A stretch of DNA of 56,762 nt from Bacteroidales bacterium (GTDB taxonomy: Bacteria; Bacteroidota; Bacteroidia; Bacteroidales; Bacteroidaceae). The DNA is taken from the NCBI GenBank assembly GCA_030528885.1, contig JAUMXY010000014.1, positions 1 to 56,762 of the forward strand, given 5' to 3'. The position numbers and the translations under genes are program-made. Under the pieces are notes generated by a model that was not told where the DNA came from, did no database searches, and worked only from the letters and a program-made list of their open reading frames with translations. Shown here piece after piece: positions 24,551-49,627 of this stretch (the stretch's first letter is position 1; each line of letters begins with the position of its first letter).

Positions 24551-24614
24551 CGTACCCCTCGGGTCCGATGCACCGTACCCCTCGGGTCCACCATGGCGGA
24601 CCCGAGGGGTACGG
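24551..24614 (+). repeat. Dispersed repeat, locus 2 (three units, intergenic)
   Basis: Unit CGTACCCCTCGGGTCC at 24551-24566, a second copy at 24573-24589 and an inverted copy at 24598-24614, with short spacers, then GGTATAG. The second and third units can form a perfect 17-bp hairpin with an 8-nt loop. Confidence 0.9.
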
Positions 24615-32416: not shown

Positions 32417-32481
32417 CCGTACCCCTCGGGTCCGATAGGGTGGACCCGAGGGGTACGGTGCGTCGAACCCGAGGGGTACGG
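32417..32481 (-). repeat. Dispersed repeat, locus 3 (three units, intergenic)
   Basis: One forward unit (32417-32433) followed by two inverted units (32442-32458 and 32465-32481), then GGTATAAG. With one unit in one sense and two in the other, it matches the two-plus-one pattern of loci 2 and 4 but with the pair at the other end. Confidence 0.9.
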
Positions 32482-40861: not shown

Positions 40862-40925
40862 CGTACCCCTCGGGTCCACCACACCGTACCCCTCGGGTCC
40901 GATGCATCGGACCCGAGGGGTACGG
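40862..40925 (+). repeat. Dispersed repeat, locus 4 (three units, intergenic)
   Basis: Unit at 40862-40877, second unit 40884-40900, inverted unit 40909-40925, with the palindromic spacer GATGCATC between the last two, followed by GGTATAG. Same layout as locus 2. It lies in a 400-bp gap between the MATE gene and the double kinase that otherwise holds only the kinase promoter. Confidence 0.9.
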
Positions 40926-41113
40926 TATAGAAGAGGTGTGTTTGTTCTTCATTTCTTCAGGAGCGCCTTACGTTCATTCTGGAGTTGTGAAAACTGTCTT
41001 GGAAAAGGTTTCCGACAACTTCAAAAAGGGGCATTCAACCCTACATGCTCCCTCTAATGCTCTTAACTTCCCTAAAAAATATGCCTTTTTCTTTTGTTTT
41101 TATCTTTTTTTTG

Positions 41114-41132: not shown

Positions 41133-44100
41133 ATGATAAACATGAGTATGTATTTCCGAAAAATGTCCTTTTTCATTCCTTTGTTATTGTTAGCCGGAGG
41201 AATAGTGATAGGTTCTTGCAGCAGAATCAAGCGAGCGCGTCCAGAGAAGGTTCACAGTATAGTGGTGGTGCATTCGTGGGATAGCATCGGCGAGGAGAAA
41301 GAGTTGTTTAGCAAGACGATGAAGCAAGCGTTTAAAGACGCAGAGCTGCCGGTGAATGTGCATCACATCTATGCGAACATGGTGCATCGCACCCAAGAGT
41401 TGTTCGCCAAGTACGATTGGCCTGTGTATGCAGACTCTATCAGGAAATGGAAGCCAGATGTGATTTTGCTGAATGACGACCCTATCGTAGAATGGCTCCT
41501 CACGCAAGAAACCGTAGATTCCATCTTTCTCAAGACGCCCATCGTGTTTGCTGGCGTGAACGCGCTGCAGAGGGACTCTCTCTACAAGATTCCGCAGATG
41601 ACAGGTTTTGAGGCGCATATTGACTTGGGAAGAAATATCGAGCTGCTGATGAGAATAGACAAGAAGCAAAGCTTGATAGTGGAATTGGATAGAGCTCCGT
41701 TTGACCAGAGGTTGCGCGAGCAGTTCAATCATGACTTGAAGGACTCGACGCGCTTTGTGAATAACTCGAACTTCTATCTGAGAAATTTCGAAAACGAGTT
41801 CCTGAAAGACGTTTACGCAGGTGTGGCGGTAGTGAACTTCATCTCGTGCGAAGATCCGACTCTGAACAGGAGCGACGACGAAACGCCAGAGATGGGAAGG
41901 AAGAGGACGGAGAGCATCTATCAGAAATCAGGCACGATGCGCCACCTGCAGGTGAAGTACGACATTTTCAGCAACAGTCTCATTTACTATTCAGGCATGC
42001 CGCAGTTTACCTGCATACGTGAGCAGTTCAACGTGCCGAACAAGAACTTCTTCCTTTGCGGATATTTTACGGGAACGGAGACGCAGGTGAAGGACCAAGT
42101 GGAATATGCTGCCCGCATTCTGCATGGAGAGGAGGCAAGAACGTTGCCGATTGCTCTGCATGCGTGCGACTATTATATGGACTGGAATGTCATGCAATCG
42201 CTCTCTCCCAAGATGGCGTATGGCGTTTACTGCAAGGACTTCCATATCATCAATGCACCATACTATCTGGAGGAACCCATCATGTTCTCCGTAGGAGTCG
42301 GACTGATGTTCCTGGTGCTGAGCGGATTGGTGTTCACAATCGTTCATTTCCTTTCCCGATGGAAGAGAAAGGGACAGATGGACTTGGTGGACGATCTGCT
42401 GTACGAAGAGAAAGTGCATGAACTGATGTTCTCAAACACGAAAGATACATTGTGGGTGCTGAAAGAAGGGGAGTTCTCCTACAGCCAGCAGTTTGCAGAA
42501 TATTTTGGATTGCCACGAACATCTATGCCGATGGGAGAGGTGGAGAAGCTTGTGCATCCAGAAAGCAAGGCGTCGTTTGATTTCATCAAGAATTTCCGTG
42601 AGCAGCGAGGCAGAAAAGCTGTAAGACTGCGTCTGTCGCCAGACGGCAAGCGCTGGTACTGGGCGAAGGTGATGTATACAGTGACGGAAGAGGCTGCCAG
42701 GACTGGCGACTTGTATGGTTTGCTGATTAACATCGACAAGAAAAAAGAAACAGAGGAAAAACTGGAACAGGCACAGATATTGGCAAGCCAAGTGGCATTG
42801 AAGGAAAACTTCTTGGCCAATATCAGTCACGACTTGCGCACACCGCTTGGTGCCGTGACAGGCTTCTCCACGCTGCTGACAACCCCAGGCATGGTCTTCG
42901 AGCCGGGCGAACGTGAGCAGTATGGCGAGATTATTCATCAGAACACGGATATGATTCTGAAAATGATAGACAGTGTGATGGAAAAGGCACAGATAGAAAC
43001 GGGTGACCTGGAGATTCTCCGGAAGCCGGTGTCGGTGCGCAAGCTTGTAGGAGAATGCTACAACACCAATCGCATCATTGCACCTGCACACCTCAGCTTC
43101 TTGCTCGAGATGGCAGAGCCCGATGTGGAGGTGAGCATTGACATGACCCGGACAAAGCAGGTTGTCAATAACTTCTTGAGCAATGCCTTCAAGTTCACGA
43201 TGGAAGGTAGCGTAACCCTGGGATGGAGATACATGGACGATGGCAGCGATATGATAGAAGTCTATGTAAGAGACACAGGCATTGGCATAGAGCCAGAAAA
43301 GCAGGAACACCTGTTTGAACGTTACACCAAGGTGAATGAAACGGATAAGGGTACAGGACTTGGACTGAACATCAGTAAGACTATTATAGAGAAGCAGGAC
43401 GGTGTCATCGGCGTAGACAGCGATTATGGCATGGGAAGCCGATTCTTCTTCCGACTCTCACGAATTGTTCAATGCCTGCTGCTCGTCTTCTGCATGGGCG
43501 CAGGTCTATTGCTCCCGACATCATGTATGCCTGACTATGATGTAGAGGAGAAAGTGTCGAACGTGTTGGTTTATCATGGCTACAACAAGGCTTTCTCATC
43601 CTATAAGGAGTTTGATGAGGAATTGTTGCAGACCTTCAACGAACAGGGCATCAATGCCGACCTGAGACATGCGTATCTGGATTTGAGCTTGCCTAATCAA
43701 GATACTTATGCGAAGCACATGGAGTTGAGAGACTCTTTGAAGAATAAAGGATGGAAACCTGATGTGATTCTGCTGGAAGGCGACCGTGCTGCGCGAGATT
43801 TCCTGAAATGGAAAGATATGGGCATGATTGATGAATTTGACTCCATACCCATTGTGTTTGGAGGTCTGCATCACCCGGAATGGGATTTGCTTAGGGCAAA
43901 CAATAATATGGTTGTCATCAACGACCCGATAGATTATTGTGCTAACATCAATCTTGCTGCGGAAATGACGGGAAAGAACGTTGTGAACATAGAGTTGGAC
44001 TATTTCCATCAAGACTCTATCATTAGAACGGAAATCAGGAAAGCAATTGATAGGCCGCCTTATGTGGACAACATCGACCTGCACTTGGAATGTGAAGGAA

Positions 44101-45731
44101 ACGGAGACTTTGGCAGGCGCTTTGAGGATAGTATTATCGTGATGATGCTGTCTTCAGCTTCTCCTGAGCGGAATGTGAGGGAAGGAGAATCGCCAGAACT
44201 TGGATATGAAAAGCTGAAGCATATCTACACCAATTCGTGGATGTTCCCTGCACTGACAGTGAAAAGGGATGTATATAGCGCTTCTATTGCAGACAAGACT
44301 GGTCGTCCTCAGTTTACGGCAGTGAAAGCAGGTTTTGCTGCGGGAGATGGACGCTTCCTCTGTGGCTATTTTGCCAGCTACAGAACTGTTGCAACGGATT
44401 TGGCTACAGTCGCTTCAAAGTTGCTGAAGGGAGCTGATAAGGCGGAATTTGTAGGTCTCAGGCATGAGAAGAGATACTACATGGATTACAAAGCCATGCA
44501 GATATTAGGCATGGAGTATGATGACTACAAGGACAAGTTCACCATCGTGGGCGCACCGCCAGAGAAGACGTCGCCTATCTTCAGTTACATCACGTGGGCT
44601 GTGATTGTGATGGTCTTTGTCCTCGCTATTTTCTCCATCCTGCTGGTGGTTCAGTCTTGGCGTGAGCGCACGGCGCAGAACCTGCTTGAAAGCGTCAAAC
44701 GAAGAGCTGAGTCTCGCAATATGGCGTTGAATGGAGCGGATAGCTACACGGTTCGTTCTGAGTCAAGAATAAAGGAGATAATCTCTCATATCCATTCTGA
44801 CTATTCAAGCGATATTCCGCTGATGATGCAGTCCATCGATGTTGAGGGAACGCATAAATACGAGATATACGCGGATGTGGACGGAGACAATAACTTCAGA
44901 TGGTGGCAGCTGCGTTTCATCGTGATGTTCGATAAGAAGGAGGGAAGAAAACGTGTGGATGGCATTCTTATCAATATCGACAAAACGAAAAAGTATGAGG
45001 AAGAATTGCGGTTAGCAATGAAGTTGGCCGAAGAGGCTCGTCAGAAAGAGGACTTCTTGACTACTATCAGCCATGAGATACGTACTCCGCTTAACGCTGT
45101 GGTTGGATTTAGCGATGTGATGGTGAACATGCCGGTTGAGTCTTTCGCTGAGGAAGAATTGGCTGAGTATGCAAAGATTATCAAGACAAACAACACCAAT
45201 CTGACTGCGATGATTGAGGACATCCTGATGTTCTCTCGCATAGAAAGCGGACGAATCAGATACGAGAAAGAAGAGTTTGATGCGGCAGCTTTGGTTCAAG
45301 AGGTGGCTGCAGAATGGGAAGACATCATACCTGATGGAATCTCGCTGCAAGTGCTCGCTGTCCATAAAGGCATCATCATCAACAACGACAGGACACGAGT
45401 GAAGTACATCCTTTGCCAATTGCTGGGCAACGCCATCAAGTTCACATCGAAAGGTTCAATCGTTCTTGGTCTTACCTATCACTTGAATTCAGACAGGGCA
45501 GAGTTCTTCGTCCTGGATACAGGTTGTGGTATTCCAAAAGAAAAGCAAGAACTGGCATTTGGACTGTTCTGGAAAGATAATGGCTTCATTCCGGGCTTGG
45601 GCTTGGGTCTTCATGTCGTGAAGAAAATGACAGACGGAATGGGATTGAAGATAAAGCTTGAAAGCAAGGTTGGCTTTGGCTCTCGATTCTCTCTCTTCGC
45701 TGACGGATTCCTGAAAAAGACTGAAGAGTAA
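41133..45731 (+). CDS. Tandem double sensor histidine kinase (two complete kinases in one chain)
   Basis: A 1532-residue protein made of two homologous halves. Half 1: a lipoprotein-like signal (C29), a periplasmic ABC-substrate-binding-like sensor (40-375), a membrane helix (384-406), a PAS-like domain (428-535), HisKA with H566, N-box N684, and G boxes DTGIGI (714) and GTGLGL (740). Half 2: a new hydrophobic segment (778-798, ending LLPTSC), a second sensor (805-1140), a membrane helix (1151-1173), a PAS-like domain (1205-1285), HisKA H1314, N1433, DTGCGI (1462) and GLGLGL (1488). Sensor motifs recur about 769 residues apart (KPDVILL at 107/875, PIVF at 136/906, LCGYF at 308/1076). Both kinases keep catalytic residues and there is no receiver domain. 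The topology is consistent with four membrane passes. No response regulator is adjacent; a symporter follows 8 bp later. Confidence 0.85.
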   Translation: MINMSMYFRKMSFFIPLLLLAGGIVIGSCSRIKRARPEKVHSIVVVHSWDSIGEEKELFSKTMKQAFKDAELPVNVHHIYANMVHRTQELFAKYDWPVYADSIRKWKPDVILLNDDPIVEWLLTQETVDSIFLKTPIVFAGVNALQRDSLYKIPQMTGFEAHIDLGRNIELLMRIDKKQSLIVELDRAPFDQRLREQFNHDLKDSTRFVNNSNFYLRNFENEFLKDVYAGVAVVNFISCEDPTLNRSDDETPEMGRKRTESIYQKSGTMRHLQVKYDIFSNSLIYYSGMPQFTCIREQFNVPNKNFFLCGYFTGTETQVKDQVEYAARILHGEEARTLPIALHACDYYMDWNVMQSLSPKMAYGVYCKDFHIINAPYYLEEPIMFSVGVGLMFLVLSGLVFTIVHFLSRWKRKGQMDLVDDLLYEEKVHELMFSNTKDTLWVLKEGEFSYSQQFAEYFGLPRTSMPMGEVEKLVHPESKASFDFIKNFREQRGRKAVRLRLSPDGKRWYWAKVMYTVTEEAARTGDLYGLLINIDKKKETEEKLEQAQILASQVALKENFLANISHDLRTPLGAVTGFSTLLTTPGMVFEPGEREQYGEIIHQNTDMILKMIDSVMEKAQIETGDLEILRKPVSVRKLVGECYNTNRIIAPAHLSFLLEMAEPDVEVSIDMTRTKQVVNNFLSNAFKFTMEGSVTLGWRYMDDGSDMIEVYVRDTGIGIEPEKQEHLFERYTKVNETDKGTGLGLNISKTIIEKQDGVIGVDSDYGMGSRFFFRLSRIVQCLLLVFCMGAGLLLPTSCMPDYDVEEKVSNVLVYHGYNKAFSSYKEFDEELLQTFNEQGINADLRHAYLDLSLPNQDTYAKHMELRDSLKNKGWKPDVILLEGDRAARDFLKWKDMGMIDEFDSIPIVFGGLHHPEWDLLRANNNMVVINDPIDYCANINLAAEMTGKNVVNIELDYFHQDSIIRTEIRKAIDRPPYVDNIDLHLECEGNGDFGRRFEDSIIVMMLSSASPERNVREGESPELGYEKLKHIYTNSWMFPALTVKRDVYSASIADKTGRPQFTAVKAGFAAGDGRFLCGYFASYRTVATDLATVASKLLKGADKAEFVGLRHEKRYYMDYKAMQILGMEYDDYKDKFTIVGAPPEKTSPIFSYITWAVIVMVFVLAIFSILLVVQSWRERTAQNLLESVKRRAESRNMALNGADSYTVRSESRIKEIISHIHSDYSSDIPLMMQSIDVEGTHKYEIYADVDGDNNFRWWQLRFIVMFDKKEGRKRVDGILINIDKTKKYEEELRLAMKLAEEARQKEDFLTTISHEIRTPLNAVVGFSDVMVNMPVESFAEEELAEYAKIIKTNNTNLTAMIEDILMFSRIESGRIRYEKEEFDAAALVQEVAAEWEDIIPDGISLQVLAVHKGIIINNDRTRVKYILCQLLGNAIKFTSKGSIVLGLTYHLNSDRAEFFVLDTGCGIPKEKQELAFGLFWKDNGFIPGLGLGLHVVKKMTDGMGLKIKLESKVGFGSRFSLFADGFLKKTEE

Positions 45732-45739
45732 TAAGTCTG

Positions 45740-47176
45740 ATGCTTGTTCTTGTAACAGTCATATTATATTTCTTAGCATTGCTCCTTCTCTCTCGCTTCA
45801 CGGCAAAAAGAGGGGGCAATGATGCTTTTTTTACTGGCAACAGACAGTCTCCATGGATGTTGGTAGCGTTTGGCATGGTAGGTGCAAGCATATCTGGGCT
45901 AACTTTTATAGGTGTGCCTGGATGGGTGATGAGTATCGACATGACGTATATGCAGATGTGCCTAGGCTTTGTTGTTGGCTATCTGCTTGTTGCTTTCATC
46001 CTTCTGCCGCTTTATTATCGGTATAGGCTGACCTCTATCTATTCTTATTTGGACACACGATTTGGCAACACAAGCTATAAGACTGGCGCTTCTTTCTTCA
46101 TCCTCTGCAAATTGTTGGGAGCGGCGGCAAAGTTCTATATCGTATGCCGCATCTTGCAGGCCTGCTTTGCCGATACGTTCTCTGTTCCTTATCTGTGTGT
46201 TGTTTTGATGGCTTCTTTGCTGATATGGCTATATACACGTAAAGGGGGAATCCGAACGTTGGTCTGGACTGATTTCTTTCAGACGGCTTGCTTGCTGATA
46301 GCTCTGCTTCTGATATTGCTAAAGGTAATAACCCTGCTTGACATGAGTGTCTCGGAGGCAATGGATGCTGTGTGGAATCACCCTCATTCGCGCATCTTTG
46401 TGTTTGATGATGCTTTTTCGAAGCAATACTTCTGGAAGCAGTTCCTGGCAGGCATATTTGTAGTTGTCGTCATGACGGGGCTTGACCAGGATATGATGCA
46501 GAAGAATCTCACTTGCAAGGATTTGCGCTCTGCTCAAAAAGACATGTGCTCATACGGGGTGCTCTTCGTGCCGGTCAATTTCCTTTTCCTTTCCTTGGGC
46601 ATATTGCTGATGCTTCTGTATCAGAAGACGGGCATGCCTTTGCCTGCTGATGGAGATGCTTTGTTGTCCAATATGGTGCTGAGCGGTACCATGGGTACGG
46701 CTTGTATCGTGCTCTTTACTTTAGGCGTCATTGCCAGCGCTTTCTCATCGGCAGATTCGGCCATGACCGCATTGACGACCAGTTTCTGCATAGACATCCT
46801 TGGCAGAGAGCGTGACGAACGCACGAGGAAAAGAGTGCATCTGTGTGTGTTCGCTGCATTTGTGTTGGTGACTTTGGCTTTCAACGTCATCGACTCAGGC
46901 AGCGTCATGGATTTAATCTATACATTAGTATCCTATACCTATGGCCCGCTGCTGGGGCTTTTCGCGTTGGGCATGTTTACCAACAGGATGCCCAAAGAGT
47001 CTTGGGTTCCATTCATTGCCATTGCCTCACCCGCTGTTTGTTATCTGATAGACTGCGTGGTGCTGCAGGCAACAGGCTATAAGTTTGGCTACGAAATGTT
47101 GTTGTTCAACGGTTTTTTAACTTTCATAGGGCTGTGGGGGACGTCGACACCGCGCAGCCGTGTCATCGTGTCATGA
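45740..47176 (+). CDS. Sodium:solute symporter (SSF) family transporter
   Basis: A 478-residue polytopic protein of the SSF/LeuT-fold family. Features are FFTGNRQSPWMLVAFGMVGASISGLTFIGVPG near the N-terminus (about 30-60), SIYSYLDTRFG, the TDFFQT segment and the Na+-site region ASAFSSADSAMTALTTSF (about 333-350). About thirteen helices are expected. The substrate is unknown; relatives carry sugars, sialic acid, proline or similar. It starts 8 bp after the double kinase, and its stop overlaps the start of the methyltransferase (ATGA, 47173-47176), so sensor, transporter and methyltransferase are likely one transcript. Confidence 0.9.
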   Translation: MLVLVTVILYFLALLLLSRFTAKRGGNDAFFTGNRQSPWMLVAFGMVGASISGLTFIGVPGWVMSIDMTYMQMCLGFVVGYLLVAFILLPLYYRYRLTSIYSYLDTRFGNTSYKTGASFFILCKLLGAAAKFYIVCRILQACFADTFSVPYLCVVLMASLLIWLYTRKGGIRTLVWTDFFQTACLLIALLLILLKVITLLDMSVSEAMDAVWNHPHSRIFVFDDAFSKQYFWKQFLAGIFVVVVMTGLDQDMMQKNLTCKDLRSAQKDMCSYGVLFVPVNFLFLSLGILLMLLYQKTGMPLPADGDALLSNMVLSGTMGTACIVLFTLGVIASAFSSADSAMTALTTSFCIDILGRERDERTRKRVHLCVFAAFVLVTLAFNVIDSGSVMDLIYTLVSYTYGPLLGLFALGMFTNRMPKESWVPFIAIASPAVCYLIDCVVLQATGYKFGYEMLLFNGFLTFIGLWGTSTPRSRVIVS

Positions 47177-48528
47177 GATTCATAGATTTGTTTGCAGGTC
47201 TTGGAGGTTTCCATCTCGCCCTCTCTCGTCTTGGGCATGAGTGTGTCTTTGCCTCAGAAATCAAGCCAAAGTTGCAAAAACTATACAAGATAAATTTTCC
47301 TGATGTGCCCATACAGGGCGACATCACGAAAATCAAGGCAGAAGATATTCCGCCGCATGATATATTGTGCGGAGGATTCCCTTGCCAGCCTTTCTCTTTC
47401 TCTGGAAAGAAGCAGGGGTTTGATGATGAGCTGGGGCGTGGTAACTTGTTCGATGAGATATGCCGTGTGCTTTCTTATCATCATCCTAAATACATCTTTC
47501 TGGAGAATGTTTCGGCGCTCCCGGGCCATGACGATGGACGCACATGGATGGTGATTCAGCAGAAGCTGGACGCTTTAGGCTATGATATAGATGGACGTGT
47601 GTTTTCTCCGCATGAGTTTGGCGTGCCGCAGCACCGCCCCCGTTTCTATATTGTTGGTATGCTGCGCGATGAGCAAGGACATAGCGGCATGCGGAAGTTC
47701 CATTTCCCTCAGCCCGATGAAAAACTGATTAGCGATGTGCGAACCATCGTTGACCCTGCGGACAATGATGCGCTTCAGCCCGTGCGCCGCGCCTTGCATC
47801 CAGTGTTTGATGCTTGGCAGGAATTTGTCTATAACGTGACCAAGCGCGATGGCTATATGCCCTCACACTGCATCTTTACGATGGAGTTCGGTGCCGATTA
47901 TGAGTTTGAAGATACGCCGCCTGCTTTCCAGCCGATAGAAAGGCTGCGAGGACGCCGCGGTGCCTATGGCAAGGTGCTGGAAGGCGATACGATGGAGGAG
48001 TTGGTGGCTGGCTTGCCCTTCTACATGCAGAAGACAAAGTACAATGTCACCTATCCTGAGTTCAAGAAAGTGCTCATACGCCAGAATCGTGATTTGTATC
48101 AGCGTCATAAAGACTGGATAGACCCTTGGTTGCCTAAAATCATGAAGTATCCTAGCACTCAGCGCATGCTGGAGTGGAGCACCAATCAAGATTGGGACTT
48201 CCGCAATCATGTCATTCAGCTGCGTCCGTCAGGCATACGCATACGCTCCCTTAACTATGTGCCCACCATCACGCTCTGCACAACAGCTACTCCCATCTTG
48301 CCTTGGGTTCCTTTCCCGCCTGATGGGGCAGTGGACAAGAAGGGAAACCCTTACACTCCTGAAGACTTCCGTTGGGGACGCTACATCTCTCATAATGAGG
48401 CGGCTCGTATTCAGTCTATGCAGGAACTGAACTACAATGGATTGTCACGTTTGCAGAAGTTCAAGGCATTGGGCAACGCCGTCAATGTCGATGTGGTTCA
48501 GATGATAGCGCAAAGACTGATTAAATGA
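47173..48528 (+). CDS. dcm: DNA (cytosine-5-)-methyltransferase
   Basis: A 451-residue C5 methyltransferase. Motif I is FIDLFAGLGGFHLAL (3-17), motif IV GGFPCQPFS with the catalytic C71, motif VI ENVSAL (E111), motif VIII PQHRPRFYIVG, and motif X GNAVNVDVVQM near the end. The target-recognition region lies between motifs VIII and IX (about 210-370). The specificity cannot be read. No restriction endonuclease, Vsr nuclease or specificity subunit is nearby, so it looks like an orphan methylase. The start is chosen at 47173 because motif I must follow directly and because it overlaps the symporter stop. Confidence 0.92.
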   Translation: MRFIDLFAGLGGFHLALSRLGHECVFASEIKPKLQKLYKINFPDVPIQGDITKIKAEDIPPHDILCGGFPCQPFSFSGKKQGFDDELGRGNLFDEICRVLSYHHPKYIFLENVSALPGHDDGRTWMVIQQKLDALGYDIDGRVFSPHEFGVPQHRPRFYIVGMLRDEQGHSGMRKFHFPQPDEKLISDVRTIVDPADNDALQPVRRALHPVFDAWQEFVYNVTKRDGYMPSHCIFTMEFGADYEFEDTPPAFQPIERLRGRRGAYGKVLEGDTMEELVAGLPFYMQKTKYNVTYPEFKKVLIRQNRDLYQRHKDWIDPWLPKIMKYPSTQRMLEWSTNQDWDFRNHVIQLRPSGIRIRSLNYVPTITLCTTATPILPWVPFPPDGAVDKKGNPYTPEDFRWGRYISHNEAARIQSMQELNYNGLSRLQKFKALGNAVNVDVVQMIAQRLIK

Positions 48529-48640: not shown

Positions 48641-49627
48641 GCAAGTCAAATGGAAACAGCCTTGCTTGCGTTCGTACTTCACATAGCACAAGCCCTGTTC
48701 CCGAAGGTCGTTCAGCACTTCCGACAACACTCTTTTCATAGGTTCGTTCCAGCGCAGCAGTGCCATATCGTCATAGTAAGTGCCTGTGACGGGGACGAAA
48801 CGGTTGTAAGCAATGTCCACCGTCGTGCCATAGCAGTGGCACGAGTTGGTCGTGGCATTCTGGTTGCCTCGCTGCAATTTCGACACGTCATCAGCCGTGC
48901 GCAGCACTGACGTCACCATCAGCAGATGCACAGGCAACCCCTTCACAATGCAGGAGTCGATGAAATTCACGCTAATGGTGTTGAGCAGATGCTGAGCGCG
49001 TGGCACCAGGTAGGGAATCGAGTGGGTGAGTTTATCCACGGTGTAGAAAGGGGAGTGCGTGATGTTGACCAGCTGATGCTCCCTGACATACCGCTCTGCT
49101 TCCTCACGGCTTCTCACAGGGGTGATGCCATGCTCTTGGGCTGCTCTGATTTGTACGTCCTGCACATCAGGGAAGCATTTGCTGTAGCTCCATACCCCTC
49201 GAATGGGGTGAAACTTCTTGCGGCCAGCAGTCTTTTCTGCAATTTGCTCGCTGGGCAAAGGCTCGTCCTGGGACACCGTGTCAGAAGGCTCATCATCTCC
49301 CTCTTCCTCCTCATCTGATTCATCGTACCCCTCGGGTCCGCCAAGGTGTACCCCTCGGGTCCGCTGCGTCGTATCCGAGGGGTCCGATAATTCTTCCTCT
49401 TCATCTTCCTCGGGCAAAGATGCTTTTTCGTACATGCTCTCTGAAATGTACCTGCCATTGTCAGACGCTGTATAGGCTTGGTTGCTGGCAGCGAGAGGTG
49501 AGTCTGTATGAAGTGGAATGTCCAGCTTAAATACATGGCGTATAGCCGCAAAAAGCCCCATCACAATTATAAATGTGAGGAGGAACTTTTTCTTGCTGTA
49601 TCGAGATTTCTTTTTCCCTTGTTCCAT
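48635..49627 (-). CDS. DUF5715-like, M15-peptidase-like membrane-anchored protein
   Basis: A 330-residue protein. A basic N-terminus and a single membrane helix (FLLTFIIVMGLFAAI) are followed by an acidic, low-complexity linker (about 70-130). A C-terminal domain (about 145-330) carries SCHCYGTTVDIAYN and QGCFHLT, matching the His/Asp and His zinc ligands of M15 D-Ala-D-Ala peptidases (SxHxxGxxxD and a distal H). It is probably a periplasmic cell-wall peptidase or binding protein. A unit of the dispersed repeat (49324-49385) lies in frame in the linker and is translated as QRTRGVHLGGPEGYD. Start chosen at 49627, 4 bp after the malQ stop; an ATG at 49654 would overlap malQ by 23 bp. Confidence 0.75.
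   Translation of the reverse strand: MEQGKKKSRYSKKKFLLTFIIVMGLFAAIRHVFKLDIPLHTDSPLAASNQAYTASDNGRYISESMYEKASLPEEDEEEELSDPSDTTQRTRGVHLGGPEGYDESDEEEEGDDEPSDTVSQDEPLPSEQIAEKTAGRKKFHPIRGVWSYSKCFPDVQDVQIRAAQEHGITPVRSREEAERYVREHQLVNITHSPFYTVDKLTHSIPYLVPRAQHLLNTISVNFIDSCIVKGLPVHLLMVTSVLRTADDVSKLQRGNQNATTNSCHCYGTTVDIAYNRFVPVTGTYYDDMALLRWNEPMKRVLSEVLNDLREQGLCYVKYERKQGCFHLTCR
49324..49385 (+). repeat. Dispersed repeat, locus 5 (three units, in-frame inside a gene)
   Basis: Units at 49324-49339 and 49347-49362, and a degenerate third unit CGTATCCGAGGGGTCC at 49370-49385 with the flipped core seen in locus 1. It lies in the acidic linker of the DUF5715 protein, and the frame remains open across it. Confidence 0.9.

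Follow-up and report, generated by a model that had tools for sequence, protein, structure and literature searches.

A single open reading frame in a genome of the Bacteroidaceae reads as two sensor histidine kinases fused head to tail. Is such a fusion genuine, how did it arise, and do its two halves (hereafter HK1 and HK2) function jointly? The usual picture of a sensor kinase is a homodimer; among close relatives of this protein, the same pair is found in the form of two genes, of arrays that include dead partners, or of a single chain. The gene lies in a window of 56,762 nucleotides, which is the whole stretch of DNA analyzed, from a source genome of 2.62 Mb in 73 contigs that is 89% complete.

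Two complete sensor kinases in one frame

The frame occupies positions 41133..45731 of the forward strand, to which the coordinates of its parts below also refer, and runs without interruption through 1532 codons from an ATG start to a TAA stop. The encoded chain opens with a signal-like leader that extends to Cys29 (41133..41219, Cys codon 41217-41219), a residue invariant in 35/35 chains of the genus. There follow a predicted periplasmic sensor (residues 30-385, 41220..42287), a membrane helix (residues 386-409, 42288..42359), a PAS-like linker domain of approximate limits (42390..42767), a HisKA domain with phospho-acceptor His566 (42801..43007, His codon 42828-42830) and a HATPase_c domain (residues 671-775, 43143..43457). 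The joint between both kinases is an internal signal-like segment that ends at Ser797-Cys798 (43458..43526, Cys codon 43524-43526). Beyond it the same order is repeated: a second sensor (residues 799-1150, 43527..44582), a second helix (residues 1153-1176, 44589..44660), a second PAS-like linker, also approximate (44700..45002), HisKA with His1314 (45042..45251, His codon 45072-45074) and HATPase_c (45387..45698). The domains of the two kinase cores were located by Pfam and alignment; the two membrane helices were assigned by reading the sequence, and they served as controls in the segment scan described below.

Pfam searches of the window protein (E up to 0.01) detected two HATPase_c domains (E 1.3e-38), two HisKA domains (E 3e-31) and no receiver domain, in agreement with an initial annotation of this DNA that had described two receiver-less kinases head to tail. 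The same annotation considered that the H, N and G boxes were kept in both kinases, and alignment of the genus chains shows H, N, G1 and G2 to be invariant in 35/35. It also reported that sensor motifs recur at a constant offset of about 769 residues. The sensors do show this spacing, with PQFT at 290 and 1059 and Cys at 29 and 798; the kinase cores are 748 residues apart (His566 and His1314). HK1 and HK2 of the window are 28% identical overall, and their sensors 29%.

As for the PAS-like domains, no Pfam PAS family matched the window protein, but a single-gene relative (L166) passes PAS_3 with 29.3 bits for a cut-off of 25.6. The second linker was placed by position, and PAS_3 gives a match below the cut-off in the split HK2 of locus L052. 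If TodS-type modules of PAS and histidine kinase are taken as reference, the two kinase modules are matched here and the PAS domains are deduced only from relatives. As for the sensors, neither matched a Pfam family at E up to 1. The sensor of one relative comes near ABC_sub_bind (PF04392; E 1.6e-5, 24.7 bits for a cut-off of 25.9), a family that matches 2/19 sensors at E up to 0.1, none of them over the Pfam cut-off. Profile searches of the PDB for the sensor fold yielded weak matches only, to a designed protein at E 0.51 and to a ribosomal protein at E 0.54; the closest solved chain, 3lkv, is also a weak match (E 0.25) and covers the same C-terminal part as the ABC_sub_bind match. The sensors of HK1 and HK2 may be binding-protein-like.

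Occurrence of the fused gene in the genus

The fused protein was found in 35/45 genomes of the genus including the source genome, and the other 34 copies share 46-75% identity with that of the window. None of the 35 copies, one per species-level genome, contains an internal stop. Among genomes of the genus with at least 90% completeness and at most 5% contamination, 13/14 hold the fused protein; a search of G024 (99% complete) at E 1e-60 did not find it. Seven loci on public contigs are also open, six of which seem to overlap genomes already counted. Named relatives were sampled from sheep, water buffalo, roe deer and horse gut. Plasmid copies of the fused gene were not found at megablast level.

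One reading of a long frame of this kind is that two genes were merged by an assembly or sequencing error, and the initial annotation had considered it in case separate genes with a stop at the joint proved usual among relatives. Outside the genus they are indeed usual. A stop is mostly present at the joint position in sister genera, which would speak for such an error, as would the fact that the named relatives are metagenome-assembled genomes. Inside the genus, however, all 35 copies are open in as many separate species-level genomes. In practical terms this rules out an error of that kind, whose probability we regard as negligible. The fusion is real, genus-wide and retained; its parts are ordinary, and the whole is unusual.

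Origin of the fusion from adjacent genes

Matches at E ≤1e-60 were obtained in 58/399 genomes of the family: 29 of this genus, 21 of the sister genera g2, g21 and g24, and 8 of g3, g9 and g14. A search of 393 genomes of the order at the same threshold matched only the window's own genome and G513. Pairs were analyzed in 20 of the 21 matching sister-genus genomes (G347 was left out), and HK1 and HK2 are adjacent at all 22 loci. Relatives with two adjacent single kinase genes, as envisaged in the initial annotation, thus exist in sister genera. The two genes are separate at 12/12 loci of g24, with a 4-base overlap at 9 of them. Two consecutive pairs are found in g21 (5/5 genomes) and at the g2 loci L044 and L048. 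Loci L043, L048, L051, L053, L057 and L059 are four-kinase arrays in which one kinase is devoid of an ATPase domain and others lack the phospho-histidine.

An outgroup was provided by nine loci that have one gene of the HK1/HK2 type and no neighbor of the same type. These loci belong to seven of the 8 matching genomes of g3, g9 and g14 (G318 was left out) and to G513. At L168 (6378-12504), a single kinase of the HK1/HK2 type lies beside two kinase genes that match over the kinase part only.

A quick tree of 105 halves was built (LG+G4, SH-aLRT support only, long branches flagged). The tree and the motif tallies of relatives include 19 of the 35 genus chains, while all 35 entered the alignment of joint and motifs. 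HK1 (48 rows) and HK2 (48 rows) form sister clades with SH-aLRT of 99 each, and each clade spans four genera. The fused halves of the genus form one clade on either side (19 HK1 rows, support 99; 19 HK2 rows, support 100). The fused state requires three changes per side of the tree, which correspond to the genus, L045 (genome G114) and L044 (genome G096); the fusion at L044 joins a shortened HK1 to HK2. The separate fusion at L045 (4917-9422) has an apparently dead HK2, with His replaced by Tyr and the N box and G2 lost, and its internal Cys remains.

Most simply, the tree would be explained by one old duplication that gave rise to HK1 and HK2, followed by three fusions, with separate neighboring genes as the probable starting point. 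In principle, the three changes could also reflect one gain and two losses. The initial annotation had proposed a tandem duplication after which the stop and start separating the copies were lost. Both steps find support, but the pair is older than the fusion since both clades extend over four genera.

Degenerate partners in relatives

Do the two kinases work together? All motifs are kept in both kinases in the 19/19 genus chains tallied and at 12/12 loci of g24, and every one of the 22 sister loci has at least one complete kinase left. Losses are found in the arrays of g2 and g21. There, HK2b has lost its His in 7/7 arrays and retains intact N and G boxes; the substitute is R in g2 (2/2) and K (4/5) or N (1/5) in g21. 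The His of HK1b is kept in g2 (2/2) and lost in 4/5 loci of g21. HK1a is without HATPase in 7/7 arrays, and its His is lost in g2 (2/2) and kept in g21 (5/5). Elsewhere, HK2 of L047 has Phe in place of His. The dead partners are not decaying, as dN/dS within g21 is 0.08 for HK1a, 0.09 for HK2a and 0.06 for HK2b, values that do not include HK1b and come from synonymous sites near saturation.

A kinase that has lost its His and kept its ATPase would be able to act only on a partner, and HK1 and HK2 probably work as a pair. The degenerate partners are thus an indirect sign that HK1 and HK2 may constitute a heterodimeric pair comparable to FasB and FasC of group A Streptococcus, adjacent kinases that are reported to heterodimerize and to be able to dispense with one kinase domain (PMC12675982). 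The likeness lies in adjacent kinase genes, with products that would likewise heterodimerize here. On the other hand, FasB and FasC are six-pass kinases encoded by separate genes, and resemble the split and degenerate relatives and not the fusion. A simple pair-wise heterodimer fails for the second pair of g21, as both members are without His at four of five loci; the acceptor would there have to sit in the first pair. The pseudokinase argument comes from the relatives only, since neither kinase has degenerated in this genus.

The retention of catalytic motifs in both kinases (35/35) would suit two independent homodimers with different outputs, fused for co-expression and nothing else, and so would the low identity of the halves. 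This explanation seems, however, unlikely: the HK1 and HK2 trees are largely mirror images, the genes are adjacent at every sister locus compared, and His-less partners are under purifying selection in relatives.

The joint resembles a lipoprotein leader

The initial annotation stated that the catalytic domain of HK1 runs directly into a hydrophobic, signal-like segment, and this is borne out: the segment begins about five residues after HATPase 1, the last residue of which is 775. An uncharged stretch of 16-23 residues precedes Ser797-Cys798 in the genus chains (n=35), and both residues are invariant in 35/35. Cys798 is the paralogue of Cys29 at the start of the chain. Its column contains the leader Cys in 52/54 separate-gene rows, the two rows without Cys being one of HK1 (L056) and one of HK2 (L046), and Cys798 is also retained in the other fusions, L044 and L045.

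When a PROSITE-like lipobox pattern was applied, the N-terminal leader passed in 32/35 chains and the internal site in 16/35. The 19/35 internal sites that fail, that of the window included, do so in each case via a Pro at -3, which is found in 0/36 ordinary lipobox-like leaders of these bacteria. Conservation is not confined to Cys798, as Cys781 of the same segment is kept in 31/35. A generic scan centered on hydrophobic peaks placed the joint segment in the lipobox-like class in only 22/35 chains, in the AxA-like class in 5 and in neither class in 8; control segments gave 2, 22 and 46, respectively (n=70). Among the nine single-gene relatives, at least five have a leader of the Cys type within their first 45 residues and three are ambiguous. 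The leader of L166 ends like a signal-peptidase-I site instead of a Cys-type one, a swap that favors cleavable leaders. Most codon changes at the joint are synonymous, and the same is true of other regions (joint: pN 0.18, pS 0.69, from 85 pairs that are not independent and with synonymous sites near saturation).

Sequence conservation, the relatives and the parallel family described in the next section lead us to favor, with a confidence just short of even, a fused old pair that acts as a heteromer and whose precursor is cut at the internal lipobox-like site. An ancestral operon pair of paralogous sensor kinases would have become one gene. Each partner would consist of a leader of lipoprotein type, a periplasmic sensor and a single membrane helix, followed by a PAS-like linker, HisKA and HATPase. 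As a heteromer, HK1 and HK2 would convey two periplasmic signals into one phosphoryl-transfer unit, and the fusion would set a 1:1 supply of both. With less certainty than the heteromer itself, the joint may be exported as an internal signal sequence and receive a lipid on Cys798, where lipoprotein signal peptidase may cut to release two membrane-anchored chains that pair.

Another possibility, which deserves serious attention even if we incline against it, is that the chain is not cut. The segment at the joint would then be a lasting helix, and HK1 and HK2 would pair within or between chains of a four-pass receptor. A single open frame in 35/35 copies fits this arrangement, 16-23 uncharged residues are long enough for a helix, and the Pro at -3 in 19/35 weakens the lipobox. 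A plain helix, however, does not need an invariant Ser-Cys at its outer end (35/35). Furthermore, only about five residues lead from HATPase 1 to the membrane, yet its DHp partner is expected a PAS domain away, judging from the domain order. The initial annotation had suggested an intramolecular HK1-HK2 dimer, which may be possible; it would have only these five or so residues between HATPase 1 and the hydrophobic segment. The description of a four-pass protein in the same annotation is doubtful: both hydrophobic leaders resemble lipoprotein-type signals and not lasting helices. Overall, lipid modification and cleavage at Cys798 appear slightly likelier than an uncut chain. A word of caution may also be in order for other proteins: where a leader-like segment occurs within a long kinase frame, it may be a site of cleavage instead of a membrane pass.

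The joint might also harbor an internal start from which HK2 is additionally translated, so that the fusion would be partly cosmetic. A start-like codon (ATG, GTG or TTG) exists within residues 766-781 in 30/35 chains. No position is kept throughout: ATG occurs anywhere in this interval in 17/35 chains, and the commonest columns are GTG 779 (17/35) and ATG 778 (11/35). We consider such a start very improbable.

A parallel family of two-kinase chains

A second long kinase frame was detected in the source genome, on contig C12 (G000, L165:1068-5267). It encodes a chain of 1400 aa with DUF5112, two DUF5113 and two HATPase_c stretches; its relatives are L180-L219, and a response regulator with DUF5932 adjoins it in the source genome. 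DUF5113 is present in 50/61 genomes of the family, mostly twice per frame. Its cut-off is passed by three of 149 genomes of the order, two of this family and G528, the latter only with its neighbors in frame.

The joint was examined in 41 chains (1179-1544 aa) of the 50 DUF5113-positive genomes. A leader-like segment follows HATPase 1 closely, and a simple scan scores it as lipobox-like in 17 chains, as AxA-like in 17 and as neither in 7; the figures for the remaining hydrophobic segments in these chains are 2, 23 and 62 (n=87). Motifs of the halves were read from alignment columns, the acceptor column being picked by eye. Half 1 has N, D, G, G and G2 in 41/41, with His in 7 and Asn in 28 at the likely acceptor column. 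Half 2 has His in 41/41, Asn at the N-box column in 22/41 and no kept G boxes. This sharing out of ATPase motifs and phospho-histidine between halves suggests that the DUF5112/DUF5113 chains are paired by design.

Like the window protein, these chains place two membrane kinases in one frame with a signal-like joint just after HATPase 1. Their sensors are, however, different (DUF5112, DUF5113 and TPR), Pfam detects neither DUF5112 nor DUF5113 in the window protein, and only the first ATPase domain of the DUF5112/DUF5113 chain matched the latter. In addition, their halves divide labor, and a response regulator is adjoining in the source genome. A tentative generalization, in which we place slightly less trust than in the mechanism favored for HK1/HK2, is that Bacteroidaceae may have two-kinase precursors that pass through the membrane and are cut at an internal signal sequence by signal peptidase I or II, which would yield obligate unlike pairs at 1:1, in at least two families (HK1/HK2 and DUF5112/DUF5113). 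Since close relatives of the window protein carry the same pair in several forms, kinase heterodimers, and possibly precursors cut by signal peptidases in bacterial signaling, become testable by comparison and simple blotting.

Comparison with known systems

Hybrid two-component systems of Bacteroides combine a periplasmic sensor and a kinase in one chain with receiver and DNA-binding domains. The window protein shares the sensor-kinase chain, and their receiver and DNA-binding domains were not found in it. FbcH of Bradyrhizobium is the product of one gene and is reported to undergo cleavage within an internal signal sequence. A possible internal cut is the point of likeness; FbcH yields cytochromes b and c1, not kinases.

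The statement of the initial annotation that this architecture was not known from the literature must be qualified, as TodS-type double kinases exist (PMC4861429) and the DUF5112/DUF5113 chain is common in the family. TodS of Pseudomonas putida is described as a double sensor kinase in which both histidines are required. Like the window protein, it has two modules of sensor plus histidine kinase in one chain. TodS differs in having a receiver between modules and no membrane region, while the window protein, in which no receiver was found, carries hydrophobic segments in both modules and has a signal-like joint.

A limited literature search, which covered titles and the starts of abstracts, found no on-topic paper on tandem, double, dual or fused histidine kinases. 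Similarly limited searches gave no paper naming DUF5112 or DUF5113, and nothing usable on lipobox kinases, internal signal peptides, FbcH or substrate-binding-like sensor kinases. The terms 'HKHK', 'HK-HK' and 'two HK domains' are absent from the accessible part of a survey of kinase architectures (PMC4558063), as are 'heterodimer' and 'lipoprotein' from that of a review on sensor kinases (PMC8534201).

Neighborhood and output

Output would proceed via a separate response regulator. No partner regulator adjoining the fused gene was recognized in the genus, and ten receiver matches were found in the source genome. A lone single-domain receiver lies on contig C32 (G000:C32:9188-9592), and its family is present in 39/45 genomes of the genus. 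It shares 59% identity with a receiver that adjoins the split pair at the g24 locus L052, and is a weak candidate for the output; a role as a general phospho-acceptor is possible. A role as specific partner was rejected, since the family extends to G024, where the fused kinase was not found at E 1e-60.

At 11/12 loci of g24, a TPR-like gene comes after the pair, with a small gene (141-144 aa) next in line. Beyond the latter, convergent ORFs (130-163 aa) number two at each of 10 loci and one at L064; none is seen at L049, where ~960 bases of contig remain. The convergent ORFs were checked with Pfam at L052 alone, and there they are receivers. In the segment L052:10495-13098, the split pair is accompanied by the TPR-like gene, by the small gene, here of 141 aa and with hydrophobic segments, and by two receivers of a single domain each. 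A search for the accessory TPR gene in the source genome gave an empty result, to which little weight should be given.

Downstream of the fused gene, 8 bp past its stop, the window carries a sodium:solute symporter gene identified by Pfam (45740..47176, forward strand). The symporter was discarded as part of the system, as it is found at 12 of the 19 genus loci that were compared, at one of them behind two intervening genes. Past it, a C-5 cytosine DNA methylase (47134-48528) is found at 13/19 genus loci compared. The window also contains a G+C-rich repeat, GTACCCCTCGGGTCC, with a 23-base period and 11 matches (at most 1 mismatch) for 0.01 expected. The repeats are grouped in four clusters ~8 kb apart (24552-24612, 32419-32479, 40862-40926 and 49325-49362), and the cluster upstream of the kinase gene contains a perfect 22+22 palindrome.
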